Of a stretch of DNA of 64,000 nt, positions 30,188-48,751 are shown in pieces. The first letter of the stretch is position 1. The number at the start of each line of letters is the position of its first letter. A program made the position numbers and the translations under genes. This DNA comes from Lacticaseibacillus absianus (GTDB taxonomy: Bacteria > Bacillota > Bacilli > Lactobacillales > Lactobacillaceae). The notes beneath the pieces were generated by a model. The model was not told the DNA's origin, did not search any database, and saw only the letters and a list, made by a program, of their open reading frames with translations. The DNA is taken from NCBI RefSeq assembly GCF_013407595.1, contig NZ_JABEKX010000001.1, positions 514,522 through 578,521 on the forward strand, read 5' to 3'.

Positions 30188-32245
30188 TCAGGGTAGAAGG
30201 CGCAGCTTGGTCGTGAACTGACCGCCTTGCATCAGGGTGTGATGGGAGATCGTGTTCGTCAGCGGTTGACCGTTGAATGTACGGGAAGCGACGAAGTTAA
30301 AGAAAGGTTGATTATTGGTCGTTGTCAGGTGAAGGTCACCGGCAGGCAGATGCATGGTCACTTCGTCGAACAACGGAATGCCCAAGACATAGGTGCCGCT
30401 CCCGGGTGTGACAGGGTAGAAGCCTAAGCTAGAAAACAGGACCCAGCAACTCATTGAGCCATTGTCCTCGTCGCCAGGGTAGCCGGCAAAACCGGGGTCG
30501 AATGCCTGTGTCAGTAACGTTTTGACCAAAACTTCGGTTGAGGCTGGATCATTGGCGAGCGTGAACAGGTAGGGTAAATGAAAACTCGGCTGATTCGAGA
30601 TTGCGAGTTGGCCGAATGGCAGCGCAGACAATTCGCGCATCTCGTGAATTGTCTGACCATAGCTACCGACCTTGAAGTGTGCGGGCTGATTCACCAAGTG
30701 GTGAAGATGGTCCGCGAACGCCTCAGGACCACCGCAAGCATCGATCAGACCCGGCAGATCCTGATAGACGGCGAAGCTATTTTGCCATGCGCTGCCCTCG
30801 GTGTAACCGTTACCCCAGGCCAGGGGGTCAAAGTCCGCCAAAAAGTGACCATCTCTGTCTTTGGGCCGCATCAACTTAAGTTCCGGGTCGAATAAGTTGC
30901 GCCAGTTCTGGCTGCTAGCAGCGTAAGCGGTCGCGACCCCTTCGTGACCTACTGCTCGGGCGACGACACTGATCAGCCAGTCTGAGTAGGCGTAATCCAA
31001 TGTCTTGTTGACACTTTCGTGAATATCGGCGGGCACATAGCCCAGTGTCCGATACTCCTGACCGCCTTCGCGACCGTAGCGCGGATCAGGACTGACCGTT
31101 GTGGCTTCATCGATCATTGCCGCCAGAAATTTAGGCATCAGGTCAGTCGCGATCCCCTTGACTGCAGCGTCTGCAATGACGGCATCTAACATAGTTCCTG
31201 GCATGACACCACGCTCATCAGGAGAGAGCCAACGCGGCAGGAATCCGGTCTCCAGATAACTATTATAGAACCCTTCCAGCATCTCAGCGTATCGCGCTGG
31301 CTGCAGTAAGGAGAGTAGCGGAAATGCAGTTTTGTAAGTATCCCAAAATCCGTTGTTGGTGAACATCTTGCCGGCTCGGGGTTGGCGACTGGTGGTGTCG
31401 TAATGCCAAGGCGCGCCTTGCGCATCGATCTCATAGAACTGCATGGGAAATAGTTGCGCACGGTAGAAGTTGTGATAGAACAGACTGACATGACTTGGAT
31501 TTGCGTCATGGATGGTGATCTGATCCAACGCTGTTTGCCAGACGGCTCGATTCTCAGCTACCTGGGTGTCAAACGGTTTCTCGATGAGCGGGCGAAGGTT
31601 AACGTTCGCCTGGTCCGCACTGATGAACGAGGTGGCCCAGCCAAGCGTTGCCTCGCGGGCGTCTATCGTTAATGTGACGGCATGCTCACCGATCGTTAAC
31701 GTGGTCTTGGGCGGTAGGGCAAGGGATAGAAACATCGTGAACTGAGGGTCTTCACTACCGCTAAAGTTGACGATCGCGAGCATCAGACGCTCGGGTGTGT
31801 GGGTCAAAACGCGCGCCCCCGCAGCACTGATCCGAAGGTACAGCGGTGCCTCAGTATGGGCCGACAAATGTAACGCGCCGCCGGTCGTATTGGCAGTCGC
31901 CTCAACGGTGACTTGGGCCTCTTGAACGCGCAACGCGAGGCGGTGTGGGGCGAAGGTCGCGTCATCAGGGACATAGGTCTCAAGCAAGGGCTGGTCGACT
32001 TGCGCCACCGGCGTGAACAACACACTTGAAAAATCACCGACCCAAGGACTGGGCTGGTGTGTCAGACGAATACCTGCAAAACCAGCGTCTCGTGGGGAGA
32101 ACCACCAGTTCGTCTCCTCGTCGGTTGTTTGGACGCTCAAGTAATTCATGCCAAAGGGGACCCCGCAAAGCGGTAGTGTATTGCCGTGTGAAAAGGTCGC
32201 AGTGCTATCGGTACCGATCCGTGTATCGATTTGGTCTGGGTTCAT
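30188..32245 (-). CDS. GH92 alpha-mannosidase
   Basis: A 685-residue glycosidase of family GH92, calcium-dependent exo-alpha-mannosidases acting mostly on alpha-1,2 (also 1,3/1,4/1,6) linkages. Family segments seen are FSHGNTLPLCGVPFGMNY near the N-terminus, GIRLTHQPSPWVGDF (about 80) and the catalytic GYPGDEDNGSMSCWVLFSSLGFYP region (about 600). There is no signal peptide, so it trims imported mannosides in the cytoplasm, as in the pneumococcal N-glycan pathway. It overlaps the GntR gene by 4 bases (ATGA) in the same operon, divergent from GH125/GH38/GH20. Confidence 0.93.
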   Translation of the reverse strand: MNPDQIDTRIGTDSTATFSHGNTLPLCGVPFGMNYLSVQTTDEETNWWFSPRDAGFAGIRLTHQPSPWVGDFSSVLFTPVAQVDQPLLETYVPDDATFAPHRLALRVQEAQVTVEATANTTGGALHLSAHTEAPLYLRISAAGARVLTHTPERLMLAIVNFSGSEDPQFTMFLSLALPPKTTLTIGEHAVTLTIDAREATLGWATSFISADQANVNLRPLIEKPFDTQVAENRAVWQTALDQITIHDANPSHVSLFYHNFYRAQLFPMQFYEIDAQGAPWHYDTTSRQPRAGKMFTNNGFWDTYKTAFPLLSLLQPARYAEMLEGFYNSYLETGFLPRWLSPDERGVMPGTMLDAVIADAAVKGIATDLMPKFLAAMIDEATTVSPDPRYGREGGQEYRTLGYVPADIHESVNKTLDYAYSDWLISVVARAVGHEGVATAYAASSQNWRNLFDPELKLMRPKDRDGHFLADFDPLAWGNGYTEGSAWQNSFAVYQDLPGLIDACGGPEAFADHLHHLVNQPAHFKVGSYGQTIHEMRELSALPFGQLAISNQPSFHLPYLFTLANDPASTEVLVKTLLTQAFDPGFAGYPGDEDNGSMSCWVLFSSLGFYPVTPGSGTYVLGIPLFDEVTMHLPAGDLHLTTTNNQPFFNFVASRTFNGQPLTNTISHHTLMQGGQFTTKLRLLP

Positions 32246-33306
32246 GGTGCTGCCTCCTTAATCAGAGATTGGGTTGAGTTGCGTACAACGAGTTTGACCG
32301 GGACGGTGATTCGATCAAGGTAGCACTGGTCAGGCACGTTGATCTGCTGGAGGATCAAGTCGACGGCTTGACGGCCGAGGGCCTCGAAGTCCTGTGTCAG
32401 CGTGGTCAATGCGGGGGAGTTACTGGCTGCAATCTCGATGTCATCGAATCCGACGATCGACAGGCGGTCAGGCAGTGACCACCCGATTTTTTGTAGTGCT
32501 TGGCTGAGGGCGACCGCTTCGAGGTCGTTGCCCATGATCACCGCGGTGATTCGTGCGTGTGTGAGGTATTCTGCAAGCGTCGTGACGTCCGCGCATCCGC
32601 TCAGGTCCTGTGCCCACTGAAGCGGTAGCGTTGGCGCGATCCCGACTGGATGATAGGCGTTGAGGTAGCCAAAAAAACGGTCAGACACGGTGCCCGACCA
32701 GTCTTGCCAGAAAGGGACACGGCTACAAAAAGCGATCCGTTCGTGGCCTAAGTCGAGGAGGTGGGTCGCAGCAAGGTGGCCACCGCTCACATTGTCTGAA
32801 GCGACGCTGGGAAGGGCAAGCGCACTCGGGGGTGCGTCGAGGATCACGGTTGGCATATGCAGTTGAGCCAATGTGATCAATGTCGGCATCTCCGCATTGC
32901 GTTCTCTCGGGTAGAAGAAAATGCCGGCATATTGATCAGTCGCAGCGATAAGGTGACGCTGGCGGAATTGTTTGGACGTGATCGTCTCGAGCTGCCAAGT
33001 TGTCCCGGCCAGTCCCGTCGTGATCCCACTCGCATAATCGCCCATCTTTAGGTTGGCATAGGGTAGCACGAGAAGCAGCTTGCGTGAGCGACTAGCAGCA
33101 TGCGGTTTGACGAAGCTTCCCCGGCCCTGAACGCGATAGGCAAGATCCGCTTTGACGAGTTCATTCAGGGCGCGTTTGGTCGTGATTCGGCTGACTTGGT
33201 AGTGGATCGCGAGCGCATTCTCGCTAGGTAGCAGATCGTCCGGTGCATATTCACCACGCAGAATGGCAGCGCGTAGTCGCTCGTATAGCGTCTGATATTT
33301 TGGCAT
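32242..33306 (-). CDS. GntR/LacI hybrid (AraR-type) transcriptional regulator
   Basis: A 354-residue regulator: an N-terminal GntR winged helix (about 1-72, PSENALAIHYQVSRITTKRALNEL) fused to a LacI-type periplasmic-binding sensor domain (about 75-345), the AraR architecture. It is divergent from the GH125-GH38-GH20 operon and co-transcribed with GH92, so it is the likely local repressor of mannosidase genes, with an alpha-mannoside or mannose phosphate as inducer (inference). ATG 33306 has GGAG upstream (minus strand CTGGAGGAGCCGA). Confidence 0.9.
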   Translation of the reverse strand: MPKYQTLYERLRAAILRGEYAPDDLLPSENALAIHYQVSRITTKRALNELVKADLAYRVQGRGSFVKPHAASRSRKLLLVLPYANLKMGDYASGITTGLAGTTWQLETITSKQFRQRHLIAATDQYAGIFFYPRERNAEMPTLITLAQLHMPTVILDAPPSALALPSVASDNVSGGHLAATHLLDLGHERIAFCSRVPFWQDWSGTVSDRFFGYLNAYHPVGIAPTLPLQWAQDLSGCADVTTLAEYLTHARITAVIMGNDLEAVALSQALQKIGWSLPDRLSIVGFDDIEIAASNSPALTTLTQDFEALGRQAVDLILQQINVPDQCYLDRITVPVKLVVRNSTQSLIKEAAP

Positions 33307-33355
33307 TCGGCTCCTCCAGTTGGTATAGGCGACTAAGACGACTTTTTGACGAGAA

Positions 33356-33402
33356 TGTTAACGCTTGCACCAATAATGGCACCTAACATGATATATTGCA
33401 AG
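33356..33402 (+). promoter_or_regulatory. cre site, extended -10 promoter and dyad of the mannosidase operon
   Basis: TGTTAACGCTTGCA (33356-33369) fits the CcpA site TGNNANCGNNNNCA exactly. TGATATATT (33389-33397) is an extended -10. CTTGCA (33364-33369) and TTGCAAG (33396-33402) form an inverted repeat around the core promoter, a candidate GntR/AraR-type operator. This suggests glucose repression plus specific control. The divergent GntR-GH92 unit is probably controlled from the same region. Confidence 0.65.
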
Positions 33403-33428
33403 TGTAAAAAAATACCAAGGAGAAAAAG

Positions 33429-34712
33429 ATGACAGACTTCTTAACTCAAGGTGCCGACACCTATATCAAGAAGATCGTTGCTCAGTGTGGCGAGGAGCAC
33501 CCAGCCTGGGCGGAAACTTTTGCGTTGACGTATGCTGATACGCTGAAGCACGCCCTGATTGCGGATGGTCCCGATCGAATTTTTGTGTTGACGGGAGATA
33601 TTCCGGCGATGTGGCAGCGCGATTCCACTGCCCAGATGCGGCCGTACCTCGTCCCGGCGCGCACAGACGCTGCCCTTGCAGATGTGATCGAGCGTGTGAT
33701 CAATCGCCAGTTCTTCAATATGGCCCTTGATCCATACGCCAATGCATTCAATCAGACGCCCAACAATGCCGGGCATCAGACGGATGAGACCCAAATGGGC
33801 CCATGGATCTGGGAACGTAAATATGAGTTAGACTCGCTGTGTTACCCTGTACAGTTGGCATACTTGTTCTGGCAGAACACTGGCCGAACCAGTCATTTCA
33901 ATGCTGGTTTTGAAGTCGCGATCGAGAAACTGCTTCAAGTGATCGTTGCAGAACAGGACCACCGCCATTCACCATACCGATTCGCGCGCACCGAGGACCG
34001 TCCAGAGGACACCTTGATCGATAAAGTCGGTCGCCCGGTTGCGCCCACTGGCATGAGCTGGAACGGATTTCGACCGAGCGACGATGCATGTGTGTATGGC
34101 TACTTGATCCCAAGTAATCTGTTTGCGGTTGAGATCTTGCGTGACCTGGCCGAGATCTACCGCGAGGTCCTTCATCGGCCCGCGGAGCGCTTTGAGTATT
34201 TGGCTAACACGATTGAGGCGGGTGTGGCACGTTATGGACTGACAACTAATGCTGCGGGCGAAAAAATCTATGCCTTTGAGGTTGACGGCCTTGGCAATCA
34301 ACTCGTGATGGACGATGCGAATGTCCCGAACCTGTTGTCGCTGCCGTATCTTGGCGCCGTGGCCGTTGACGACCCGATTTATCGGGCGACGAGAAAGACG
34401 ATATTATCTTCGGAGAATCCGTATTACTATGCGGGGACTTTTGGTGAAGGACTTGGGTCACCGCATACCCCGAACGGATATATTTGGCCGATCGCTAAGG
34501 CGATCGAAGGGCTGACCGAACAGGATCGTTCAGTTAAGGCCGCGCGCTTAGACGGGCTTGTGGCAACCACCGCAGGTACCAGAATGATGCATGAGGGCTA
34601 TAACGTGGAGAACCCGACGCAGTACACACGTGAATGGTTTAGCTGGGCCAATATGATGTTTTGTGAACTGGTGATGGATTACTTCGGTGATCGCGTGGAC
34701 ACGATTCGCTGA
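33429..34712 (+). CDS. GH125 exo-alpha-1,6-mannosidase
   Basis: A 427-residue family GH125 enzyme, an inverting exo-alpha-1,6-mannosidase. Diagnostic segments are GDIPAMWQRDSTAQMRPYL (about 57-75), QTDETQMGPWIWERKYELDS (about 118-138) and GMSWNGFRPSDDACVYGYLIPSN (about 215-237). No signal peptide. AAGGAG precedes ATG 33429. It is first in a GH125-GH38-GH20 operon, the same set found in the pneumococcal N-glycan locus, where GH125 removes alpha-1,6-mannose from the trimmed core. Confidence 0.95.
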   Translation: MTDFLTQGADTYIKKIVAQCGEEHPAWAETFALTYADTLKHALIADGPDRIFVLTGDIPAMWQRDSTAQMRPYLVPARTDAALADVIERVINRQFFNMALDPYANAFNQTPNNAGHQTDETQMGPWIWERKYELDSLCYPVQLAYLFWQNTGRTSHFNAGFEVAIEKLLQVIVAEQDHRHSPYRFARTEDRPEDTLIDKVGRPVAPTGMSWNGFRPSDDACVYGYLIPSNLFAVEILRDLAEIYREVLHRPAERFEYLANTIEAGVARYGLTTNAAGEKIYAFEVDGLGNQLVMDDANVPNLLSLPYLGAVAVDDPIYRATRKTILSSENPYYYAGTFGEGLGSPHTPNGYIWPIAKAIEGLTEQDRSVKAARLDGLVATTAGTRMMHEGYNVENPTQYTREWFSWANMMFCELVMDYFGDRVDTIR

Positions 34713-34742
34713 TCATCGGGCTTGGAAGGTGGAGGCAACGAT

Positions 34743-37421
34743 ATGACAAAGAAAAAAGTGTACATCATCTCGCATAGTCATTGGGACCGTGAATGGTACA
34801 TGGGTTACGAGCAACACCACATGCGATTGATTAGCCTGATGGATGATCTATTTGATCTATTTGAGCATGACCCAGAATTCGATAGTTTTCATCTGGATGG
34901 ACAGACCATTATTTTGGACGATTACCTTAAGGTTCGGCCCGAAAAAAAAGACGAACTCGCAAAGTGGATCCGTCTGGGGAAGCTACGCGTTGGCCCGTTT
35001 TACATCCTGCAAGATGATTTTTTGATCAGTCCGGAAGCCAATGTGCGTAATACTCAGTATGGGTTGCGTGACGCCAAACGATGGGGGCAACCCGTTCCTT
35101 TGGGGTATTTCCCCGACACGTTCGGGAATATGGGTCAGACGGCGCAGATGATGACACTAGCAGGACTCGATACTGTTGCGTTCGGACGGGGCGTGACCCC
35201 AACCGGGTTGAATAACCAAGTGAGCCATGGCGATTTCGATTCGACTTACTCGGAGATGTGGTGGCAGGGGCCTGATGGGTCCAAAGTACTGGGGATCCTT
35301 TTTGCAAACTGGTATTCGAATGGGAATGAGATCCCCGTAGACCCCACCGAAGCAAAACGATACTGGGATCAAAAGTTGGCTGACGCAACGCGCTATGCCG
35401 CGACACCAGACCTGCTTTTTATGAATGGCGTGGATCACCAGCCGGTGCAGATGGATCTGAGTGCCGCGATCCGAACCGCCAACGCGTTGTACCCGGATTA
35501 TGAGTTCATCCATTCGAACTTTCCTGACTATATTCAGGCGCTGCGAGCCGATCTGCCCGCTCACCTTTCGACCATTCACGGTGAGCTAACTTCACAGGCA
35601 ACCGATGGGTGGTATACACTTGCCAATACGGCATCAAGTCGGGTTTACCTCAAACAGCAGAATACGAAAACCGAGCGACTGCTTGAAGATCAGGTCGAGC
35701 CCCTGCTTGCGCTAGCGGGAATGGCAACGACGGCTAACCAAGATAAGCTGGATTATGCATGGCGATTGTTGTTGCAGAATCACCCGCATGATAGTATTTG
35801 CGGCTGCTCGGTCGATCCGGTCCACGCGCGCATGATGACAAGATTTGCGGCAGCACAGCAGGTGGGTCAAAGCCTGAGCGAACAGGCTTTGCGTCACTTC
35901 GCGGATCAACTTGATACGACCGGGTTCAGTGCCGCCTCACACCCCTTTGTCTTATTGAATACGAGTGGGGTCACCAAGCAAGAAGCCGTGCAGGTCGAAG
36001 TTGAATTAGACCGGGCCTTGTTCAAGGACGGGGCCCCTCGAGAACAGTATGATCGGCTTCAGGCGAAGGCGGATAGACTACCCGCACTGCGAGTGGTCGA
36101 CGCGACTGGTCACGTGATCCCTGCCCGGATTTTGGCGCCATATGTGCGCTTCAACTACGAGCTGCCTGATCGCAGTTTTCGCGTTCCGTTCATGGGCTTG
36201 TACGTCACGGTTGAGGTTGCGGCACAGGTGCCAGCCTTTAGCTGGCGAACGTTGGCTGTCGTCGAAGGGGAGCCGCCTGTGTTGGATGCGCCACCAGCGT
36301 CTATGGCGATCACAGACCAGACGCTCACGGTTGCGCTGGAGGCTGACCACAGCGTGACCGTAACTGACAAAGTCACGGGGCATGTTTATCGAAACGCCTT
36401 GGTCGTCGAGGATACTGGTGATATTGGCAACGAGTATATCTATCGTCAATCACATGATCAGCTGACCATCACCGCCAAGGCGGGACAAGTCCGTCACGTT
36501 AAGACGGAAGTCACTGCGGCTGGTCAGCAACTGAGTTTTGACCTGACACTAACGATCCCGGCTAGTGCTGACCATCGGCTAGATTATGAGCGTCAGGCAA
36601 TGATCGACATCACTGAGCGAATCAGTGAACGGAGCAGCGAGTCCGTCACACTACCGTTGCATGTGACGTTGGCATTGGCTAACGATGCGCGCGTGCAAGT
36701 ACGGGTGACGGGGGATAATCACGCTCGGGATCATCGGCTGCGCGCAGTGATCGCGACTGGGCTTGAGACGACCACGCATCAAGCGGAATCGATCTACGAA
36801 GTTGTGACGCGGCCCAATGGCGTTGGGCCTAACTGGCGGAATCCCACGAATCCGCAACACCAACAAGCGTTTGTGACTGTTCACGATACACACCGCGGCG
36901 TCGTGGTCGGCAACTTTGGCCTTAACGAATATGAAGTCGGACCGCAGGGTGAATCGATTGCGCTGACCCTGTTACGTTGCGTGGGTGAGATGGGTGATTG
37001 GGGCTACTTCGCAACACCGGATGCACAGTGCCAAGGGGCATTTGATGCAGCGTTTTCACTTGCCTTCACGGATGGAAGCACTGCTGAGCAGCTGAGGGCA
37101 ATGCAGGCGGCCCGGGCGGATCAGGTCCCACTGATCAGCACACAGACAGGCCATCACTTGGGCCAACGGTCGACAGACGGCACGTACCTGACGGTCACGA
37201 ACGAGGCTTTTGCCGTGACCGCAACGCAACAGGTGGGCGCGACGATGATCGTTCGGGGCTATAACCTGACTGACCAGCAACAGCCAGTAGCGGTGCGCGT
37301 CGCGGGTCAGTCGGCCACAAGGCTGATGGATCTGGTCAATACGCCGCTATCACGACCCGTTGCGCAAGATCTGGGCCCAGCAGAGATCCGCACCTATGCG
37401 TTTGATCGACAGGGGGAATGA
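34743..37421 (+). CDS. GH38 alpha-mannosidase
   Basis: An 892-residue cytoplasmic GH38 retaining alpha-mannosidase. Zinc and catalytic residues are in ISHSHWDREWY (His12, Asp14) and GYFPDTFGNMGQ (nucleophile Asp125); the late NHPHDSICGC is also diagnostic. ATG 34743 has GGTGGAGG at proper spacing, whereas the TTG 21 bases earlier lies before that site. In other Firmicutes this group cleaves alpha-1,3-mannose of N-glycans. It overlaps GH20 by 4 bases (ATGA). Confidence 0.95.
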   Translation: MTKKKVYIISHSHWDREWYMGYEQHHMRLISLMDDLFDLFEHDPEFDSFHLDGQTIILDDYLKVRPEKKDELAKWIRLGKLRVGPFYILQDDFLISPEANVRNTQYGLRDAKRWGQPVPLGYFPDTFGNMGQTAQMMTLAGLDTVAFGRGVTPTGLNNQVSHGDFDSTYSEMWWQGPDGSKVLGILFANWYSNGNEIPVDPTEAKRYWDQKLADATRYAATPDLLFMNGVDHQPVQMDLSAAIRTANALYPDYEFIHSNFPDYIQALRADLPAHLSTIHGELTSQATDGWYTLANTASSRVYLKQQNTKTERLLEDQVEPLLALAGMATTANQDKLDYAWRLLLQNHPHDSICGCSVDPVHARMMTRFAAAQQVGQSLSEQALRHFADQLDTTGFSAASHPFVLLNTSGVTKQEAVQVEVELDRALFKDGAPREQYDRLQAKADRLPALRVVDATGHVIPARILAPYVRFNYELPDRSFRVPFMGLYVTVEVAAQVPAFSWRTLAVVEGEPPVLDAPPASMAITDQTLTVALEADHSVTVTDKVTGHVYRNALVVEDTGDIGNEYIYRQSHDQLTITAKAGQVRHVKTEVTAAGQQLSFDLTLTIPASADHRLDYERQAMIDITERISERSSESVTLPLHVTLALANDARVQVRVTGDNHARDHRLRAVIATGLETTTHQAESIYEVVTRPNGVGPNWRNPTNPQHQQAFVTVHDTHRGVVVGNFGLNEYEVGPQGESIALTLLRCVGEMGDWGYFATPDAQCQGAFDAAFSLAFTDGSTAEQLRAMQAARADQVPLISTQTGHHLGQRSTDGTYLTVTNEAFAVTATQQVGATMIVRGYNLTDQQQPVAVRVAGQSATRLMDLVNTPLSRPVAQDLGPAEIRTYAFDRQGE

Positions 37422-39277: not shown

Positions 39278-39339
39278 ATGCGCGCTGACGAATCGGCTGT
39301 TTGTTTTTGAGCCTGAGACATCAAGCGGTTATCGCCAAG

Positions 39340-39397
39340 CGTATAAGCGCCCCCTGTAAAACCGAACTTAGGTTTTTGCAGGGGGCGCGCTTATGCG
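39340..39397 (+). terminator. Long hairpin after the GH20 gene
   Basis: GCGCCCCCTGTAAAACC pairs with GGTTTTTGCAGGGGGCGC around GAACTTA, extended outward by CGTATAAGC/GCTTATGCG. The stem is exceptionally stable but has no trailing T run, so it may be a terminator, an mRNA-stabilising structure or a palindromic repeat. Confidence 0.5.
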
Positions 39398-39620: not shown

Positions 39621-39625
39621 AAAAT

Positions 39626-39701
39626 ATTAGGTGAACGTCCTTTAATTAGGAGAGAAAGTCCTAAACTAAGTTGATTGTCGCATCGTTGGAAAACGCTTAC
39701 C
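39626..39701 (+). promoter_or_regulatory. Candidate response-regulator repeats and cre-like site upstream of the importer
   Basis: ATTAGG...GTCCT (39626-39641) is repeated as ATTAGG...GTCCT (39645-39662); the GTCCT halves are 21 bp apart, two helical turns, as AraC-type regulators (YesN) prefer. Each unit is also a dyad (TTAGGA/TCCTAA). GGAAAACGCTTACC (39688-39701) resembles a cre site with two end mismatches. No convincing -35/-10 pair was found, which fits an activator-dependent promoter. Confidence 0.45.
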
Positions 39702-39734
39702 ATTAATTCATAAAGAGAGAAAGGAGGGGAGACG

Positions 39735-40712
39735 ATGACACAAGATGTGGTTGTCGGGGAAACCGCTCCGCGGCCGAAGAAAAAAACTAACTTTTTCCAG
39801 CGGCTTTGGGCGAATCGAATCTTTCTACTACTGGTTGCACCGGGCACGATATTCCTGATCGTATTCTTCTATATTCCGGTACTTGCTAACGTTGTTGCAT
39901 TTCAAAACTTTCAATACTCTGATCAGGGATTCTTGTATAGTCTGTTCCATAGCCCGTGGGTCGGCTTCCAAAACTTTGAGTTCTTCTTCAAGTCTGCAGA
40001 TTTTTGGATCGTCCTTCGTAATACGGTCGGATACAACATGATCTTCCTGCTAATGAACTTCTTCTTCGCGATCTTCTTTGGGATCGTGATGAGTCAGTTG
40101 CGTAACGCCAGGTTATTGAAGGTGTACCAGACGTCCATGCTGTTCCCGTATTTCCTTTCATGGGCAATCCTCGCATACTTCGTCTATGCATTCTTGAGCA
40201 CCGACAAAGGGATCCTGAATCAGCTGATTCAAGCAATGGGCGGTAAGCCGATCGATTTTTATAACACGCCGGCGGTCTGGCCGTTCATTCTAATTTTCTT
40301 GGGCGTTTGGAAGGGCATCGGGTACAACAGTATTCTATACTTTGCGACAGCCATGGGGATCGATCCATCGTACTATGACGCCGCAATGATGGATGGTGCC
40401 AGCAAGTGGCAACAGATCAAGAACGTGACGTTGCCGCATATTCTACCCGTTGCAGTGTTGATGCTTATCCTGAATATCGGCGGGATCTTCCGTAGCGACT
40501 TTGGACTGTTTTATCTGATTCCAAGGGGCTCCGGGACGCTGATCAACGTCACGCAAACCTTCGATACGTACATTTATCGAGCGCTGACAACGACCAATGA
40601 TATTGGGATGTCGACTGCTGCCGGATTGATGCAATCTGTTATTGGGGCGATGTTGATCGTTGTTTCAAACTGGGTCGTTCGACACGTTGAACCTGAATCT
40701 GCACTATTTTAG
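39735..40712 (+). CDS. ABC oligosaccharide importer permease (LplB type)
   Basis: A 325-residue permease with six helices and a short charged N-terminal tail. The EAA loop is YDAAMMDGASKWQQIKNVTLP (about residues 217-237). The LplB/YtcP pairing with a large lipoprotein is the CUT1 subgroup that takes up large oligosaccharides; the pneumococcal N-glycan importer NgtS-NgtP1-NgtP2 belongs here. GAAAGGAGGGGA precedes ATG 39735. There is no ATPase gene in the operon. Confidence 0.92.
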   Translation: MTQDVVVGETAPRPKKKTNFFQRLWANRIFLLLVAPGTIFLIVFFYIPVLANVVAFQNFQYSDQGFLYSLFHSPWVGFQNFEFFFKSADFWIVLRNTVGYNMIFLLMNFFFAIFFGIVMSQLRNARLLKVYQTSMLFPYFLSWAILAYFVYAFLSTDKGILNQLIQAMGGKPIDFYNTPAVWPFILIFLGVWKGIGYNSILYFATAMGIDPSYYDAAMMDGASKWQQIKNVTLPHILPVAVLMLILNIGGIFRSDFGLFYLIPRGSGTLINVTQTFDTYIYRALTTTNDIGMSTAAGLMQSVIGAMLIVVSNWVVRHVEPESALF

Positions 40713-40724
40713 GAGGTGACGCCA

Positions 40725-41645
40725 GTGCGTAATAAAAAACACATTTCAGCAGTTGAGATTCGCAAGTTTGGGGCTGGCGCCAACCTGTTCTTCAACATCT
40801 TTTTGGCCGTTTTTGCACTGAGTTGTGTCCTGCCGTTCTTCTTCATCATCATTTTATCGTTGACGAAGGAATCCGACATCACACTGTATGGTTATCAGTT
40901 CTGGCCGAAACATTTTGTCCTCAGCAGTTATAGCTACTTAGCTAAAATGGGCCACCAAGTGATCGTTTCCTTCGGCGTGTCGGTTTTCGTTACCGTAGTG
41001 GGGACACTGATGAATAGTCTGTTCAGTTCGACCTATGCTTACGCGATTTCACGATCAGATTTTCTGTATGCACGATTTTTCACCATTTTTGCTTTGATCT
41101 CGATGCTGTTTGTGCCTGGGATGGTCCCGACGTACTTAGTTGTGACGCAGATGTTACACTTGCAGGATAACATCTGGGCACTGATCTTGCCGATGTCTTT
41201 CGGGGTCTATAACGTGCTGATCATGCGGACGTTCTTCAAGACCTCGATCCCAGAGGCGATCATTGATTCGGCTAGAATAGATGGCGCGGGAGAACTACGG
41301 ATCTTCCGGAGCATTGTCATCCCGCTAGCGATCCCTGGCGTCGCGACGATCTCGCTGTTTTCGGCGTTAGGCTACTGGAACGACTGGATGAACGCCTTGC
41401 TTTATACGAACAGCGATAACGTGACGCCGTTGCAGTATTTGTTGGTCAAGATCGCGAATAACATTCAGTACATGGCCCAGCAAATGTCCAGTGGTGGTTC
41501 AGCGGCCATGGCCGGCGCTAATCTGCCGACGGAAGGGATGCGCTTTGCAGTTGTCGTCGTGGCAACGTTACCGATCGCGCTGACCTATCCGTTCTTCCAG
41601 AAATACTTTGTCAAGGGAATGACGATTGGTGGGGTCAAAGGCTGA
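40725..41645 (+). CDS. ABC oligosaccharide importer permease (YtcP type)
   Basis: A 306-residue permease starting at GTG 40725. AGGAGGTGA lies 5 bases upstream, and the earlier GTG 40716 falls inside that site, so it is not the start. There are six helices, with the EAA loop IIDSARIDGAGELRIFRSIVIP (about 185-206) and a C-terminal YFVKGMTIGGVKG end typical of YtcP proteins. It pairs with the LplB-type permease 12 bases upstream. Confidence 0.92.
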   Translation: MRNKKHISAVEIRKFGAGANLFFNIFLAVFALSCVLPFFFIIILSLTKESDITLYGYQFWPKHFVLSSYSYLAKMGHQVIVSFGVSVFVTVVGTLMNSLFSSTYAYAISRSDFLYARFFTIFALISMLFVPGMVPTYLVVTQMLHLQDNIWALILPMSFGVYNVLIMRTFFKTSIPEAIIDSARIDGAGELRIFRSIVIPLAIPGVATISLFSALGYWNDWMNALLYTNSDNVTPLQYLLVKIANNIQYMAQQMSSGGSAAMAGANLPTEGMRFAVVVVATLPIALTYPFFQKYFVKGMTIGGVKG

Positions 41646-41719: not shown

Positions 41720-43189
41720 ATGAACAAATGGTTTAAGGGGTTGGCCCTGGCCGGGGTTGCGAGTGCAAGTGTACTTGCGCTGGCTGCCTGCAGTAATAGT
41801 TCTAGCGGTTCCGGCGACGGCGCTACGACGACCGTCTCCATGTATATGCCTGGCGATAAGCCGAAGAACTACGATGCGTTGATCAAGAAAGCAAACGCCG
41901 AGATCCATAAGACGTATAAGAACATCGACGTGAAGATGACCTTCATTGGCTGGGGCGATTACACCCAGAAGTACAATGTTATGGTGACATCCGGCGACAG
42001 CTACGACCTCGCCTTCGCTCAGAACTATGTGAATAACGCTTCTAAAGGCGCCTATGCCGATATGACGGATCTGCTCAAAAAAGACGCCAAGAAGGCGTAC
42101 GATACCGTTGATCCAGCCTACTGGCGTGGTCTGACCGTCAACGGCAAAGTCTATGGTTTCCCGATCAATGCAAATGTGTTTGCGTCTAACTCGCTGACTT
42201 TCAATGACTATTTTGTCAAGAAATACAATCTAGACATCTCCGAGATCAAGTCTTACGCCGATATGGAGGATGTGTTGGCTAAGTTCCACAAATCGGAGCC
42301 AGGCGTTGCGGCCTTTGCGATCGGCAAGGACTACAAGGCGTCTCCACGGCATATGGACTTCCCACTGGGGAACGGATTGCCGTTTGCGATCGATTCAAGC
42401 GGTAAGAACACGAAGGTCGTTAATGCCTACGATACGGATGAAGTGCAGGGGATCCTCAAGACGTTGCACAGCTATTATCTGAAGGGGTATATCCCACAAG
42501 ACGCGGCTACGGCAACGACGCAGTATAACTTGCAGGATAACACGTGGTTCGTCCGTCAAGAGACGAATGGTCCTTTCGACTACGGGGCAACTGCATTGAT
42601 CAACTCTGCGGGTGGCAAGAAGATGACGGTCAAGCCGATCACCGATCCGTACAAGTCCACTGCCCAGGCACAAGTCGCGGTTTGGTCTATCTCGAAGACG
42701 TCCAAGCACAAGACCGAAGCGATGAAGGTCTTGAACCTGCTCAACACGGATAAGAAGCTCCTGAACAACATCGTTTGGGGGATCCAAGGGCAACAGTGGA
42801 ACTTCACGGATGAGGCCAACGGTAAGATTAAGACGACCAGCAAGTACCAGCCTGGCTACTTCATCGGCGCTTGGATGATGGGGAACAATAAGATCCTTTA
42901 CACGCAAGATAGTGTAACGGATGCGCAGGTCAAGGAACGCGATGAGAGTATTGCAGCGGCCAAAGAGTCAGCTTCCCTTGGATTCAATCCCGACACAACG
43001 GCGCTGAAGACCGAAGTGACGAACTTGTCTAACGTGATGAGCAAATACCTTGATATTCTCAACACAGGGACTGCGGATCCTGTTCCGACCATCAAGAAGA
43101 TGGATGCTGAACTTAAGACCGCAGGCTACGATAAGGTTCAAAAAGAGTTGCAGAAACAGTATGACGCCTTTCTTGCCAACAAGGATTAA
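41720..43189 (+). CDS. Large oligosaccharide-binding lipoprotein of the LplB/YtcP importer
   Basis: A 489-residue lipoprotein, lipobox ALAAC (Cys24). Its mature domain is typical of LipO/NgtS-like binders: VSMYMPGDKPKNYDAL opening, WRGLTVNGKVYGFPINANVF, and a C-terminal DUF3502-like segment near NLSNVMSKYLDILNTG. The large size suits big ligands such as N-glycans. A weak promoter (TTGGAA 41669, TAATAT 41693, 18-bp spacer) may raise its expression over the permeases. A terminator follows 22 bases after the stop. Confidence 0.9.
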   Translation: MNKWFKGLALAGVASASVLALAACSNSSSGSGDGATTTVSMYMPGDKPKNYDALIKKANAEIHKTYKNIDVKMTFIGWGDYTQKYNVMVTSGDSYDLAFAQNYVNNASKGAYADMTDLLKKDAKKAYDTVDPAYWRGLTVNGKVYGFPINANVFASNSLTFNDYFVKKYNLDISEIKSYADMEDVLAKFHKSEPGVAAFAIGKDYKASPRHMDFPLGNGLPFAIDSSGKNTKVVNAYDTDEVQGILKTLHSYYLKGYIPQDAATATTQYNLQDNTWFVRQETNGPFDYGATALINSAGGKKMTVKPITDPYKSTAQAQVAVWSISKTSKHKTEAMKVLNLLNTDKKLLNNIVWGIQGQQWNFTDEANGKIKTTSKYQPGYFIGAWMMGNNKILYTQDSVTDAQVKERDESIAAAKESASLGFNPDTTALKTEVTNLSNVMSKYLDILNTGTADPVPTIKKMDAELKTAGYDKVQKELQKQYDAFLANKD

Positions 43190-43282: not shown

Positions 43283-44908
43283 ATGCGGCAACATTGGTGG
43301 CAATCAGCGGTTGTGTATCAGATCTATCCGCGCAGTTTTCAGGACAGTGACGGTGACGGAATTGGGGACCTGAACGGAATTATCTCGCGGCTCGATTATT
43401 TGCAGCAGCTGGGGATTGGTGCGATATGGCTCAGTCCGGTGTACCGCAGTCCGAGTGCCGATAATGGGTATGATATTGCGGATTACCAGGCGATCGATCC
43501 GTTGTTCGGGACGATGGCAGATATGGATCGGTTGATCCTTGAGGCAGGGAAGCGTGGCATTCGACTGATCATGGATCTGGTCGTTAATCATACAAGCGAT
43601 GAGCATCCTTGGTTTGTTGCCGCCCGGCAGGATCCGAATGCAGAGACGCGAGACTACTACATCTGGGCAGACCCCGTCGATGGACACGAGCCGAATGCAC
43701 TGACTTCGGGTTTTACCGGCGGCTCGGCGTGGGAGTTTGACGAGCGTAGCGGTCAGTACTTCTTACACCTCTTTTCGCGTCAACAGATCGATTTGAACTG
43801 GGCGTCACCAGCCCTTCGACAAGCGGTTTATCAGATGATGAATTTTTGGATAGATCGCGGAATCGCGGGCTTTCGCCTAGACGTTGTCGATATGATCGGC
43901 AAGGACTGGTGTCATAATGGTGTCGTCAACGGCCCGCATTTGCATGAGTACCTTCACGAGATGAATCGCAAGACGTGGCGAGACCGTGATTTTTTGACCG
44001 TGGGTGAAGCGTGGAGTGCAGACCCAGAATTGGCGCGAGGATACAGTGATCCGCAAAATCAGGAGCTTTCGATGATCTTTCAGTTCGGCTTTACCTGGGC
44101 GGATCGGGTGCTTGGCGGTGCGAAGTGGGAGACCCAACCGCTTGATATTGTTGCGTTGAAGCAGGCCCTCTTTGAGAATCAGTGGGCGATGGCGTCAGCG
44201 GGTTGGCCGAGTCTTTTTTGGAGTAACCATGATTTGCCACGAGCAGTGACGCGCTATGGTCAGAATTGTCCGGTGGCCGCCAAGATGCTAGCGATCGTTT
44301 TGCACGGGCTGCGCGGGACGCCCTTCATCTATCAGGGTGAGGAGTTGGGGATGACGAGTGCCATGTCGGAGACAATCGAAACGGTCGATGACGTGGAGGC
44401 AAGGGCGATCTACCGACAGCTGCGGAAGCGTGGTGAATCTGCCGGTCAGGCGATGGCCAAGCTCAATGTCTTTAACCGTGATCAGGCACGCACTCCGATG
44501 CAATGGGATGCGACCCCTAAGGCGGGCTTCACGACAGGAACGCCTTGGTTGGCGATCAACGCGGATCATACGCAGGTCAATGCTGCCGCTGAGGTGGGGG
44601 CCGCTGATTCTGTCTGGGCGACTTACCGCCAGTTAATTGCGTTGAGACGTCACAGTCCAATCCTTCAGACTGGGACATTCGGCGCACTTGAGGGGGACCC
44701 GGAGCAGATCATTGCGTACACGCGGTCGTTGGGCGAAGAGCGCTGGCTGATTGTCGCTAATTTCGCTGAGACGCCAATTTCAACGACCTTAGCCTCACCG
44801 GCAATGCACCTCGACCGCTATCTGATCTCCAATTATGCGTTGCCTGAGTCGGAGGTACCCACGCTCAGGTTGAGACCGTACGAAGCATTTATCGCGAGGC
44901 TGAAGTGA
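43283..44908 (+). CDS. GH13 alpha-glucosidase, oligo-1,6-glucosidase type (copy 2)
   Basis: A 541-residue cytoplasmic GH13 enzyme with nucleophile Asp200 (GFRLDVVD), acid/base in TVGEAW and third Asp in SNHDLP. Val follows the nucleophile, as in alpha-1,6-specific members. AAAGGAGGGAG precedes ATG 43283. It is separated from the importer by a terminator and from yesL by 63 bases. Its role within an N-glycan locus is not obvious; it may act on co-imported alpha-glucosides. Confidence 0.9.
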   Translation: MRQHWWQSAVVYQIYPRSFQDSDGDGIGDLNGIISRLDYLQQLGIGAIWLSPVYRSPSADNGYDIADYQAIDPLFGTMADMDRLILEAGKRGIRLIMDLVVNHTSDEHPWFVAARQDPNAETRDYYIWADPVDGHEPNALTSGFTGGSAWEFDERSGQYFLHLFSRQQIDLNWASPALRQAVYQMMNFWIDRGIAGFRLDVVDMIGKDWCHNGVVNGPHLHEYLHEMNRKTWRDRDFLTVGEAWSADPELARGYSDPQNQELSMIFQFGFTWADRVLGGAKWETQPLDIVALKQALFENQWAMASAGWPSLFWSNHDLPRAVTRYGQNCPVAAKMLAIVLHGLRGTPFIYQGEELGMTSAMSETIETVDDVEARAIYRQLRKRGESAGQAMAKLNVFNRDQARTPMQWDATPKAGFTTGTPWLAINADHTQVNAAAEVGAADSVWATYRQLIALRRHSPILQTGTFGALEGDPEQIIAYTRSLGEERWLIVANFAETPISTTLASPAMHLDRYLISNYALPESEVPTLRLRPYEAFIARLK

Positions 44909-44971: not shown

Positions 44972-45580
44972 ATGTTAGGGCGTACAACTCAGAACGTGTT
45001 CACTCGAGTGTTTGTCATGTTGATTTTGAGCCTGTTTTTCTGGGTCTATACATTCGCGGGACTGGTCATACTAGGGCTAGGACCGGCGCTTCGTGCGGTG
45101 GCCGAACTGTATCAGGCCAACCGCTGGGAATGGCGCGGCTATTCGTTCAGGGCCGGGTGGCGACAGTGGCGGGCTGAGTTTTGGTCAGTCAATGCGCATA
45201 CCTGGGGGTTCTTGGGGATCCTCCTGTTCCTGGGGTACAATCTGTACCTAAGTGTACAGCTACATCAAGCGTGGATCGTCTTCGTGCAGTTTGTGATCAT
45301 TGCGGCGATTGTGCTCACCTTTAGCCTGGGTATTTTTACGCTAACGCTCCGGGCACACTATGACATTGCGTTTAGAGATGCCCTGAAACTTGCGCTGGTC
45401 CAGTTCTTTAGCAACTTCTACCAGTTGGCCCTATTTATATTAGCGACGATCGCGACCGTGCTGATCTCCCTGAAGTGGCCAGGACTGATCATCTTCCTCA
45501 GCGTGGGGGCGTACATTGTGTTGGCTGACTGGCTCTCTGGAAAGATGTATGCGCGGATCGATGCCAGTATCGCGCCATGA
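44972..45580 (+). CDS. YesL-like membrane protein (DUF624)
   Basis: A 202-residue membrane protein with five helices, recognised as YesL/DUF624 by LGLGPALRAVAELYQ near the N-terminus. The family is regularly encoded with YesM/YesN systems and LplB-type importers, and its function is not established; a role in signalling or importer assembly is a guess. GGGGAGG precedes ATG 44972. It overlaps the histidine kinase by 4 bases (ATGA). Confidence 0.85.
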   Translation: MLGRTTQNVFTRVFVMLILSLFFWVYTFAGLVILGLGPALRAVAELYQANRWEWRGYSFRAGWRQWRAEFWSVNAHTWGFLGILLFLGYNLYLSVQLHQAWIVFVQFVIIAAIVLTFSLGIFTLTLRAHYDIAFRDALKLALVQFFSNFYQLALFILATIATVLISLKWPGLIIFLSVGAYIVLADWLSGKMYARIDASIAP

Positions 45581-47328
45581 GGCATCAGGAGCACCGCGTG
45601 CGTGAGACTTTGGTGCAGTCGAGTTTTATTCGTCTGATCAAGGTCTACACATGGATATTAGCGACCTCGGTCATCGCGGTGACGAGTATCTTTATTGTCG
45701 TCAACGTCCGTAATTACGAATCCGAGTTGCGACAGGCAGAGAACGCGGCGATGTCGCGGATCACCGATACGGTTTCGCATAATCAACAGGTGGTGGCAGA
45801 CTTTGCCTCCAAGCTCATGACGACGCCAGAGGATCTGGCCAGCTTAGATAAGTACTTCACGACGCCGCTGGCGGACTACGCGGATTATGCGATCGACCGT
45901 AGTTTGGCGGTCGGCGGCCATTACTTTTTTTGGCCGACAGAGTCGAGTCAGTTCTTCTTGCAGAATCCGCAGATCACAGAGATGACGCTGAGGATGGGCG
46001 ACCAGAGCAAAGTTTTCGTTGCCAGTTCGACGAAACCAGGCGGTGAATTACTGAGCGCAGGTACTGTCAAGAAAAAGCTGGCGCTGTCGGCCCCTCTGAT
46101 CAATCAGTACACACTTGCAACGGCAGGCGTCGTCAGCATTGGGTTCAACCAGCAGGAGTTGCGCCAGCAGTTGACTGAGATTCGTGCAACGGCGCCAATT
46201 CAGATCGCAGTGGTGTCAGACTCCGGGGTGCGGGCGTTTTATTATCGGGGTCAGGGGGTGACGCGAGACGAGGAGAAGCGCGTTAAACACGCATTGGCAA
46301 CGGGGACACTTGATAAGTTGACGGGTTATAAAGTCACCAGCAAGGCATTGACGTCCGACTACCAACTGATCCAAGTGACGAACGCGCATACGATCCAGAA
46401 TCTGATCATGTGGCGAGTGTTGCCATTGATGCTACTCGGTCTGGCCTTGCTGACCGCGCTGAGTGGTGTTCTGTGGCTGATCTTCCGGCGTTACCAGCAC
46501 CAGCTCAGCATGATTGTCGGAACGGTTCAAGCGGTGTCTGAGGGTGACCTTAATGCGCGAGTGGCCATTGAGCCCAGTCCGACCGACCTAAAAGTGCTGG
46601 CTACAGGGATCAATGCGATGCTGGCAGAGATCCATGAGCATATCTACACGATCTATCAACTGCGGATCGCACAGCAGGAGGCGAATATTAAGGCATTGCA
46701 GGCGCAGATCAATCCGCATTTTATGTCGAATACGATGGAGTATATTCGAATGGCTGCGTTAGATGCGGATCAACCGGAGCTTGCGCAGGTCGTTTACAGC
46801 TTTGCCGCCTTGTTGCGCAACAATACAGATTTTTCGCCTATGACGACGCTTAAACGTGAGCTGGACTTTATTGATAAATACATCTTTCTTTATCAAGTGC
46901 GGTTTCCAGACCGCTTAGCATATCAGATCAGTGTATCGCCAGAGGTCGCGAAGCTCAGTTTGCCCAAGTTTAGTTTGCAGCCCATCGTCGAGAACTACTT
47001 CGTTCACGGGGTGGACTTTGCCAGAAAAGATAATGCGATGCACTTGAAGGCGTGGCGTGAAGGAGATCAGGTCACCATCACGGTCGTGAATAACGGCCGG
47101 CCCTTATCAGTGGCCGAAGTGGCCGCGGTGAATCAGAAAATGAAGGCACCGCTGGGTCTTTCTCAACGGGACTCGATCGGATTGCAAAACGTCTATTCCC
47201 GACTGAGCGATTACTTCGGTGACAGTTTTGATATGAATCTGAGTAGTGATGGGGTCGAGGGCGTTCAAATGACCATGAGGTTCATTGACAAGGAGGAGAG
47301 CCTGAATGCGCAAGGTGATGATCGTTGA
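45577..47328 (+). CDS. YesM-type sensor histidine kinase
   Basis: A 583-residue membrane kinase: one helix at about 20-42, an extracellular sensor domain (about 43-275), a second helix (about 278-302), HAMP (about 305-360), the HisKA-like His_kinase domain with phospho-His381 in QINPHFMSNTMEYIR, and HATPase (about 460-575, with the GIGLQNVYSRL box). Such kinases sense extracellular carbohydrates, often with the help of the importer. Its neighbours point to N-glycan sensing, as proposed for pneumococcal TCS07. It overlaps the response regulator by 23 bases. Confidence 0.93.
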   Translation: MRHQEHRVRETLVQSSFIRLIKVYTWILATSVIAVTSIFIVVNVRNYESELRQAENAAMSRITDTVSHNQQVVADFASKLMTTPEDLASLDKYFTTPLADYADYAIDRSLAVGGHYFFWPTESSQFFLQNPQITEMTLRMGDQSKVFVASSTKPGGELLSAGTVKKKLALSAPLINQYTLATAGVVSIGFNQQELRQQLTEIRATAPIQIAVVSDSGVRAFYYRGQGVTRDEEKRVKHALATGTLDKLTGYKVTSKALTSDYQLIQVTNAHTIQNLIMWRVLPLMLLGLALLTALSGVLWLIFRRYQHQLSMIVGTVQAVSEGDLNARVAIEPSPTDLKVLATGINAMLAEIHEHIYTIYQLRIAQQEANIKALQAQINPHFMSNTMEYIRMAALDADQPELAQVVYSFAALLRNNTDFSPMTTLKRELDFIDKYIFLYQVRFPDRLAYQISVSPEVAKLSLPKFSLQPIVENYFVHGVDFARKDNAMHLKAWREGDQVTITVVNNGRPLSVAEVAAVNQKMKAPLGLSQRDSIGLQNVYSRLSDYFGDSFDMNLSSDGVEGVQMTMRFIDKEESLNAQGDDR

Positions 47329-48751
47329 CGATGAATACATGTTGCTACGTGGGCTGCGTAAGTTGATCGATTGGACGAGCCTGGGGTTGCGCGTTGAGAA
47401 CACTGAGCAAAACCCAGTCAGGGCATTGGCGTATCTACGCACCAACCCCATCGATATCCTTGTCTCGGATATGAATATGCCGGAGATGCCGGGGCCAACG
47501 TTCGTGGCGGCAGCCAAGCAGATACAGCCTGAGATGGAATTGATCGTGGTCTCGGGATATGCAGATTTTGACTACGTGAAGGCTGGTCTGCAGCAACATG
47601 CGGTCAATTACTTGAGCAAGCCGATCGATGCTGATGAGCTAGACGAGGCAGTGCGTGCGGCGATCGACCGCCTTGAGGCGCGCCAGCAAGTAGACGCTAA
47701 CGCAAGCCTTGCGGCGCAGACGCAGTTAAGGACATTGGTAACGACTGGTGCGGTAGAGCTGGCGAAGTCGCTGGGGGTGTCTTTCGATCATGAGCAAGCC
47801 CCCGTGCGTTTACTAGCGGAGTTGAATCCGCTGCCACCCAATATATTAACTGCATATCTAGACGCAGTGCCAGGCGTCCGTGGCTTTTTCCGGGAGGCGC
47901 AAGACTTTGTCATCTTGTTTCAGGGTGATCAGCAGCATCTGTCTACTTTTATCAATGAATCGCCTCGGGCGGTCGCCTCAGCCCAACGGCCAGTGTTGGT
48001 CGGACCAGAGGTATCAAAAGTCGACCAACTGCCGGGTTCATATGCCCAGTTGACCGCGGAGATCGCTCGCCAGTATTTCTTTGAGACTGCCAGCGGGTTA
48101 CGCGTAATGCTAGCCGCCGGTGAAGCGGATAACGTGCCGACATTACCAGATTTTTCTAGTGTGCGTCAGCAGATCGCAATGCTTGAACCGGCCGCATTCA
48201 AGCGGTGGCTCGCAGGGCAGTTCGAAGGGTTACGTGAAGCCAATGCCTCGGTCTTGTTGACCAGACAGATGGCCTTGTTGGTACTGATGGTATTGGCTGA
48301 AAAATTGACGCGTTTTGAGGACAAGGCAGAAGTGATCGCAACCATCAACCAGGCCCCGGTTGTCACGAAGCTGAGTGAGATCCTCGTGGCAGTTGCCCAA
48401 AGAGCGGCTACGCATGGGACCAGACGCTACTCCCGTAACGTGGCGGCGGTGCAGCATATCATCCACGAACGCTACGCTGAACCATTGACCCTGAGTAATG
48501 TTGCGGCAGAGCTTCACCTCAATTCGGTCTATCTTGGTCAGCTGTTCAAGCAGGAAACCGGTCGAACTTTTGCACAGTATCGTAACGATTGGCGGATCGG
48601 TGTTGCAATCGATATGCTGCGCAATATTAACTACGATATCAATGAGATCGCGTTGGCGGTCGGGTATCCTAATCCCAACTATTTTTACAAGATTTTCAAG
48701 TTGCAGACAAGTATGTCACCTCGTGAATATCGTGAGGCGATGGGCCGCTAA
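47306..48751 (+). CDS. YesN-type response regulator (receiver + AraC DNA-binding domain)
   Basis: A 481-residue regulator: receiver domain (1-120) with acidic pocket Asp8/Asp9, phospho-acceptor Asp55 (VSDMNMP) and the conserved Lys in YLSKPID, a middle domain, and two AraC helix-turn-helix motifs at the C-terminus (about 380-478, LTLSNVAAELHLNSVYLGQLFK and IALAVGYPNPNYFYKIFK). It is partner of the YesM kinase. The direct repeats before the importer at 39626-39662 are candidate targets. Start ATG 47306 lies behind AGGAGGAG. Confidence 0.93.
   Translation: MRKVMIVDDEYMLLRGLRKLIDWTSLGLRVENTEQNPVRALAYLRTNPIDILVSDMNMPEMPGPTFVAAAKQIQPEMELIVVSGYADFDYVKAGLQQHAVNYLSKPIDADELDEAVRAAIDRLEARQQVDANASLAAQTQLRTLVTTGAVELAKSLGVSFDHEQAPVRLLAELNPLPPNILTAYLDAVPGVRGFFREAQDFVILFQGDQQHLSTFINESPRAVASAQRPVLVGPEVSKVDQLPGSYAQLTAEIARQYFFETASGLRVMLAAGEADNVPTLPDFSSVRQQIAMLEPAAFKRWLAGQFEGLREANASVLLTRQMALLVLMVLAEKLTRFEDKAEVIATINQAPVVTKLSEILVAVAQRAATHGTRRYSRNVAAVQHIIHERYAEPLTLSNVAAELHLNSVYLGQLFKQETGRTFAQYRNDWRIGVAIDMLRNINYDINEIALAVGYPNPNYFYKIFKLQTSMSPREYREAMGR

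Follow-up and report, generated by a model that had tools for sequence, protein, structure and literature searches.

A predicted N-glycan carbohydrate-processing locus of pneumococcal/enterococcal type in Lacticaseibacillus absianus and a candidate releasing enzyme elsewhere in its genome

Introduction

The closest described system is that of Streptococcus pneumoniae, where the carbohydrate-processing locus (CPL; SP_2141-2146), with glycoside hydrolases (GH) of families GH20C, GH38, GH125 and GH92, is joined by the importer NgtS-NgtP1-NgtP2 (SP_0090-0092), which has no ATPase of its own (PMC5215778, PMC7075642), by the endoglycosidase EndoD and by the two-component system TCS07. Robb et al. 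2017 report very similar loci in other Firmicutes, eight of ten with an ATP-binding cassette (ABC) transporter, and the legend of their S2 Fig lists Lactobacillus plantarum, together with regulators and sensors (PMC5215778); clusters of the TCS07 regulon are described in other streptococci (PMC7075642). For lactobacilli, our literature search, which covered mostly titles and the openings of abstracts and had most subscription journals outside it, found no published work-out of such a pathway; two L. plantarum genome papers (PMC13095006, PMC12110957) contain the terms Lactobacillus, GH125, GH38 and GH92, and L. casei uses another N-glycan remnant, Fuc-alpha-1,6-GlcNAc-Asn (PMC10154615). Here we analyzed a 64,000-nt stretch of Lacticaseibacillus absianus (NZ_JABEKX010000001.1:514,522-578,521; the window), in which an earlier note, made from the sequence alone, had read positions 30188..48751 (the island) as an apparently complete intracellular N-glycan utilization locus, remarkable for uniting genes that the pneumococcus spreads over several loci.

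Judged by homology, the island is a predicted N-glycan CPL of the pneumococcal/enterococcal type in a Lacticaseibacillus, a kind already known. Two things are added to that kind: an apparently anchored EndoE-like endoglycosidase that would nearly complete the route, and an importer-GH13-YesLMN module that seems to have been exchanged.

Results

Gene content of the island

At the coordinates given in the earlier note, each of the twelve island genes is an open frame, and the Pfam families bear out the contiguous series described there, from GH92 to YesN (Table 1). GH92 and a GntR-LacI chimeric regulator lie on the minus strand, while GH125 opens a divergent plus-strand series that continues with GH38, GH20C, two permeases, a substrate-binding protein (SBP) of lipoprotein type, GH13, YesL, YesM and YesN. 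The nearest named GH125 loci, among the best 80 of 378 ranked by likeness to the window GH125, are those of L. kribbianus and L. parakribbianus (85% protein identity).

Table 1. Features of the island and of two genes elsewhere in the genome that the predicted pathway would draw on (positions in the window unless prefixed)
Feature	Position	Strand	Evidence
GH92, predicted alpha-1,2-mannosidase	30188..32245	-	Pfam 435.7 bits; no signal peptide seen
GntR-LacI chimeric regulator	32242..33306	-	GntR 63 bits, Peripla_BP_3 89.6 bits
Divergent promoter region	33307..33428	.	palindrome TGTTAACGCTTGCA at 33356-33369
GH125, predicted exo-alpha-1,6-mannosidase	33429..34712	+	Pfam 471.8 bits
GH38, predicted alpha-mannosidase	34722..37421	+	four Pfam domains
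GH20C, predicted beta-N-acetylhexosaminidase	37418..39277	+	GH20 and GH20C C-terminal domain, 117.3 bits
NgtP1-type permease (P1)	39735..40712	+	BPD_transp_1
NgtP2-type permease (P2)	40716..41645	+	BPD_transp_1; placement between P1 and SBP recurs in relatives
NgtS-type lipoprotein (SBP)	41720..43189	+	SBP_bac_1 and DUF3502; lipobox-like LALAAC (by eye)
GH13 (GH13a), DexB-like, predicted alpha-glucosidase	43283..44908	+	Alpha-amylase Pfam 489.7 bits
YesL membrane protein	44972..45580	+	DUF624
YesM-type sensor kinase	45577..47328	+	His_kinase 73 bits; HAMP just below cut-off
YesN-type AraC response regulator	47306..48751	+	Response_reg and HTH_18
EndoE-like GH18, predicted endo-beta-N-acetylglucosaminidase	L194:9180-11000 = G000:C1:203179-204999		PF23916 230.3 bits
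MsmK/MalK-type ATPase, orphan	L086:7379-8563		39 kb downstream of island; sole OB_MalK match in own genome

Comparison with solved structures supports the predicted import and cytosolic trimming of N-glycans. GH92 is nearest to 7fe1/6dwo and to SpGH92 (5swi), and all five catalytic and +1-subsite residues of SpGH92 (E489, D600, W70, H540 and E541, taken from PMC5215778) are kept in the alignment. GH125 matches SpGH125 (3qpf/3qry, E 6.3e-146), GH38 matches the mannosidases 3lvt (E 2.3e-302) and 2wyh (E 6e-285), and GH20C matches 5a69 (E 3.3e-83); a GH125-GH38 pair and a GH20C, further marks of a pneumococcal-type N-glycan CPL, are thus present. Family assignment of the island genes, to which the search for this family was confined, gave no GH29 fucosidase, which is missing from some streptococci too (PMC7075642). 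As had been claimed, the glycosidases appear not to be secreted: GH92, GH125, GH38, GH20C and GH13 all lack a signal-peptide-like stretch (signal peptides and the lipobox were judged by eye from the first 45 residues, not by a program).

The closest solved relative of the SBP is NgtS itself (5swa/5swb, E 1.5e-123). In the pneumococcal protein, Trp386 stacks on the Man-GlcNAc (mannose-N-acetylglucosamine) core, Trp81 forms a hydrogen bond to the terminal alpha-1,6 mannose and the reducing GlcNAc is buried (PMC5215778). W81 and W386 align with W78 and W385 of the window SBP, with alignment numbering taken as chain numbering plus 23, which gives Trp at both NgtS positions; the ligand, for example Man5GlcNAc, is predicted. 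Of 151 genomes searched, 15 have an SBP with DUF3502, and GH125 is present in 14 of these. Full-length NgtS-type copies number one in our genome and in G107, two in G277 and three in G303, G156 and G011; such triple copies (L231, L234, L235 and others) may differ in glycan preference.

The best solved relative of GH13a is a glucan 1,6-alpha-glucosidase (4aie, E 6.4e-183), and the protein also scores above the threshold of a phosphotrehalase subfamily model from NCBIfam (566.3 versus 535), as do the two other GH13 proteins of the window. The three are 44-48% alike; the second one (49303-50940) directly follows the island and has native composition (G+C at third codon positions, GC3, 0.84).

A candidate releasing enzyme elsewhere in the genome

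The window lacks an endoglycosidase, an ATPase, a beta-mannosidase and a ROK kinase. In the whole genome (2.84 Mb, 11 contigs), neither a GH85 search nor one with the Pfam GH18 model PF00704 gave a match, and the idea of a pure scavenger that these empty searches had raised was dropped once an endoglycosidase was found. The query L034:13830-15038, encoded near GH125 in another Lacticaseibacillus and bearing the EndoS TIM barrel PF23916, retrieved a protein 55% identical to it over residues 21-399, whose gene lies ~340 kb upstream of the island. The earlier note had seen no releasing enzyme in the window, and of the two families it had named, GH85 gave nothing while GH18 is represented by this EndoE-like protein. 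Because PF00704 overlooks this EndoS/EndoE-type enzyme, absence calls made on that model alone are unsafe.

The protein displays a signal-peptide-like N-terminus, a DGLDIDME motif and an LPQTG tail (all by eye), the LPXTG model scoring above its cut-off. Against NCBIfam NF049901, which we take to be EndoBI-1 of Bifidobacterium, it reaches 449.5 bits, below the 900-bit cut-off. Its best solved relative is the GH18 part of EndoE from Enterococcus faecalis (7puj, E 4.1e-97), and it shares the EndoS-type TIM barrel and the motif with EndoE and NF049901. High-mannose and trimmed complex glycans are substrates of EndoE GH18, and of its 16 catalytic, groove-floor or Man5-contact residues (Y67, R69, W71, N80, F104, R139, D142, E145, D184, E186, Q243, Y245, E276, E277, N281 and Y313; PMC8894350) 14 are kept, as read off the alignment. 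Unlike EndoE, our protein has no GH20 domain, carries the LPQTG anchor and has Gly in place of D142 and E145, both mannose contacts. We regard it as the likely N-glycan-releasing enzyme, as predicted from these features. Adjoining its gene (L194:3304-7122) are genes resembling a mannose-family phosphotransferase system (PTS; by eye), a GlmS-like sugar-isomerase-domain protein and a GntR regulator.

Across 397 Lactobacillaceae genomes, GH125 occurs in 54 and the EndoE-like enzyme in 14 at E < 1e-50 (15 at E < 1e-3, from which the weak match of G089, a GH125 carrier, E 5.8e-10, was dropped). Thirteen of the 14 carry GH125 (Fisher p 1.7e-11, shared ancestry ignored); GH85 is found in seven of the 397, five with GH125 (p 6.7e-4). 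The enzyme is encoded inside the GH125 locus itself in L034, L039 and L173 (Companilactobacillus insicii).

The genome also holds one MsmK/MalK-type ATPase gene, of the kind for which the earlier note had suggested a search. In Companilactobacillus, Latilactobacillus and some Lactiplantibacillus, homologues of it (76-81%) are encoded within or next to the locus. For the ROK gene of other loci, a 54% homologue stands by itself on contig 4, and a single weak GH2 was found whose best NCBIfam match is a beta-glucuronidase, far under the cut-off. The description as apparently complete thus fails for the island and the window and nearly holds for the genome.

One-locus versions in related bacteria

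Counts of accompanying genes are lower bounds, the stretches ending ~10 kb out. GH92, GH125 and GH38 occur together in 69 of the 80 named loci, with an NgtS/NgtP-type importer as well in 40 and with adjacent YesM-YesN besides in 22; for 54 further Lactobacillaceae stretches the corresponding numbers are 32, 14 and 6. One-locus N-glycan kits are common in Enterococcus and Lactobacillaceae, and consolidation, which the earlier note had singled out, is not exceptional. The contrast with a scattered pneumococcal set holds in part, since six of the pneumococcal genes sit in one locus. Compared with S. pneumoniae, the island unites all but the endoglycosidase and the ATPase, is without GH29, ROK and GH85, and adds GH13 and the GntR-LacI regulator; the endoglycosidase of the genome is a GH18 of EndoE-like type.

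Enterococcus loci come close in layout. L109, L110, L120 and L140, for example, share the divergent GH92-GntR/GH125-GH38 arrangement with P1-P2-SBP-YesL-YesM-YesN, and in L140 (Enterococcus gallinarum), which reads GH92-GntR/GH125-GH38-ROK-P1-P2-SBP-YesL-YesM-YesN, ROK replaces GH20C and GH13 is missing, the order being otherwise that of the island. Importer and two-component genes stand on the GH38 side, as in the island, in L116, L117, L125, L126, L128, L140 and L162, whereas many other Enterococcus loci have them on the GH92 side. The Enterococcus loci further differ by the presence of ROK, by GH85 or GH1 in several, by having no GH13 seen and by nearby GH20C matches that are weak (23-36%).

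The second half of the island resembles a Lactiplantibacillus module (L250-L255, L260; also L080/L165), in which GH20C-P1-P2-SBP-GH13-YesL-YesM stand in the same order with SBP 74-75%, GH13 62-67% and, in the seven Lactiplantibacillus stretches, P1 83-88% identical. YesN directly follows YesM, as in the island, in L250, L251, L254, L165 and L252 (continued in L070), but not in L253, L255 and L260. The Lactiplantibacillus GH20C is only 50-53% identical, and the window GH125 is of Lacticaseibacillus type. Of 11 further stretches fetched for the purpose, seven have GH13a between SBP and YesL; all seven are among the eight of the Lactiplantibacillus group, the eighth being L256, which like L065 and L067 has another importer version (SBP 51-54%) without GH13a.

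The genus has a second kind of GH125 locus (L034, L036, L037, L039), with a GntR-type gene, GH38 ~25% and GH125 40-56% identical, and an EndoE-like endoglycosidase lies within L034 and L039 and, in two pieces, L037. In Schleiferilactobacillus (L042, L047, L098-L100), a GH28-type protein is encoded between GH38 and the importer.

Composition and gene trees

GC3 is 0.59-0.67 in the twelve island genes; of seven flanking genes, six lie at 0.80-0.84 and a GNAT gene at 0.72, so the borders drawn in the earlier note are those of a compositional island. The GNAT gene and second GH13 that follow (48779-50940) are unlike the island in composition.

Gene trees were built from 18 of the 80 named loci, chosen by hand and leaving out L. 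kribbianus and L. parakribbianus (L094/L095), and they disagree. The window groups with L. mingshuiensis and L. nasuensis for GH125 (99/99) and with L. mingshuiensis and Lactobacillus for GH38 (98/99). For the SBP (95/98) and YesN (95/100) it groups with Lapidilactobacillus and Lactiplantibacillus, the sole Lacticaseibacillus comparator in the YesN tree being a long branch; for P1 it is not resolved, beside Lactiplantibacillus. The window YesN is 44% identical to that of L. kribbianus versus 51-52% for Lapidilactobacillus and L. daowaiensis. Forcing eleven Lacticaseibacillus SBPs together with the window cost 37 log units (approximately unbiased (AU) test p 0.011), for a group chosen after the trees were seen and including 11 of the 12 full-length SBPs found in relatives. 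The island therefore looks mosaic, with a GH125 of Lacticaseibacillus type and an SBP and YesN nearer to Lactiplantibacillus/Lapidilactobacillus, and our reading of the discordance is an exchange of modules, in either direction. Near the junction of the two halves, the 457 bases that separate GH20C from the first permease (39278-39734) contain a long inverted repeat (39340-39397).

Regulatory genes and sites

The regulator beside GH92 combines a GntR DNA-binding part with a LacI-type effector part, an architecture that we liken to AraR, and in 72 of the 80 named loci a GntR-type gene and GH125 are divergently oriented. The palindrome TGTTAACGCTTGCA between the two is one site read on both strands, and its count in the whole window was reached in 25 of 100 shuffles (two matches), not above chance. 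Compared with the consensus of the catabolite-responsive element (cre), a cre-like site with at most one mismatch occurs in 10 of 60 GntR/GH125 intergenic regions, while shuffles average 0.31 (maximum 2), for a pattern picked after the TGTTAACGCTTGCA site had been seen and among related loci. The TGTTAACGCTTGCA site may be bound by CcpA or, as an operator, by the GntR-LacI regulator itself. The YesMN-type genes resemble TCS07 (HK07-RR07) at family level. An Rfam search gave no match, and promoter and terminator scans returned fewer sites than in shuffles.

Neighbouring genes

Directly upstream of GH92 (24928-29784) lie two formylglycine-type sulfatases (CMPSR, CTPAR), an endonuclease/exonuclease/phosphatase-family protein and an anaerobic sulfatase maturase (anSME). 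L094/L095 (L. kribbianus, L. parakribbianus) likewise have a Sulf2-anSME pair upstream of the CPL and of a second GH20C, with genes for a CLC channel and a TauE-type exporter in between, and a Sulf2 homologue (59%, no maturase seen) lies upstream of the CPL in two enterococci, L160 (beside GH20) and L161. The sulfatase model has a mean pLDDT (predicted local distance difference test) of 92.3, and its 50 listed Foldseek matches, at 18-27% identity, comprise carrageenan, choline, GlcNAc, galactose and other sulfatases and phosphonate hydrolases; a literature search on sulfatases in lactobacilli brought nothing to the point among the titles listed. Farther off, an operon-like run (8191-19149) encodes a LacI regulator, an SBP, two permeases, DUF1861, GH130, a phosphoglucomutase/phosphomannomutase (PGM/PMM), a GH13 and a 407-aa protein without family. 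Its GH130 is close to Lin0857, with an NCBIfam match to beta-1,2-mannobiose phosphorylase below the model cut-off.

Discussion

We consider it highly probable that the genome encodes an N-glycan processing scheme including the endoglycosidase and ATPase from outside the island, with activities, ligand, localization and regulation predicted by homology. A cell-wall-anchored EndoE-like GH18 endoglycosidase would cut the GlcNAc-GlcNAc core of glycoproteins. The NgtS-type lipoprotein would capture the released Man(n)GlcNAc1 for import through the two permeases, with the shared MsmK/MalK ATPase supplying the energy. In the cytosol, GH92 (alpha-1,2), GH38 (alpha-1,3) and GH125 (alpha-1,6) would strip mannose and GH20C would take off the beta-GlcNAc. 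YesM-YesN would sense the outside glycan, and the GntR-LacI regulator, perhaps with CcpA, would act on the divergent GH92/GH125 promoter.

Several points weigh against this scheme. GH13 has no place in it, no ROK gene is found among the island genes, and our genome has 12 relatives of the GH1 found with many such loci, the best at 46%, beside PTS-looking genes (by eye). The enzyme for Man-beta-1,4-GlcNAc onward was not identified among the GH1, GH2 and GH130 candidates; the window GH130 was not assigned to this step because its nearest relatives are beta-1,2-mannobiose phosphorylases. Nearly every DUF3502 relative aligned has the NgtS tryptophans (W/W in 60 of 68 alignment rows and F/W in two; the rows include the window and some proteins twice, and six, at 14-19% identity, are frame artefacts that were dropped), so they agree with the role and do not discriminate. 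At least one GH125 carrier among those searched (G132) lacks a DUF3502 SBP. Neither the EndoE-like enzyme nor GH85 occurs in 36 of the 54 GH125 genomes, a total that includes one fragment (G071) and one split gene (G232). The Fisher test on the endoglycosidase ignores kinship, nine of the 14 genomes being of our own genus, with a query picked for its nearness to GH125, and in two of the 14 genomes (G011, G248) the endoglycosidase contains an internal stop. Finally, the glycan range may differ from that of EndoE because Gly replaces D142 and E145.

A scavenging or yeast-mannan system, in which fungal alpha-manno-oligosaccharides or oligosaccharides freed by others are taken in and N-glycoproteins are not the main source, is in our view improbable. 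The GH130 operon (SBP, permeases, PGM) lies 11-22 kb from the island, and GH92, GH38 and GH125 serve mannan breakdown too (PMC10154615), whereas GH20C and the NgtS-type binder point to GlcNAc-ended N-glycans and the genome encodes an apparently surface-anchored endoglycosidase of its own.

We also entertained an extension of the N-glycan scheme, in which GH13a would remove the alpha-glucose that caps glucosylated high-mannose glycans and the upstream formylglycine sulfatase would desulfate GlcNAc before GH20C acts. Both in Lactiplantibacillus and in the window, GH13a accompanies this form of the importer operon; because it is absent from other importer versions of the Lactiplantibacillus group (L065, L067, L256), we rate the extension lower, as quite improbable, and a literature search on glucosylated immunoglobulin Y (IgY) glycans found nothing. 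If true, it would mean that glucosylated and sulfated N-glycans are used, beyond the known pneumococcal scheme. That the importer instead feeds alpha-gluco-oligosaccharides of isomaltose type to GH13a, the mannosidase neighbourhood being incidental, is very improbable: GH13a is nearest to dextran/isomaltose glucosidases and keeps its place in the seven stretches, whereas the importer occurs without GH13 in the other four, in many Enterococcus and Schleiferilactobacillus loci and in L065 and L067, and the SBP keeps the NgtS tryptophans and occurs almost always with GH125.

The findings leave the kind of system unchanged. They name a likely releasing enzyme and provide a testable, genome-wide scheme by which a lactobacillus could feed on host or dietary N-glycoproteins, and they suggest that lactobacillus loci of this kind are modular, with importer and regulator parts swapped between genera.

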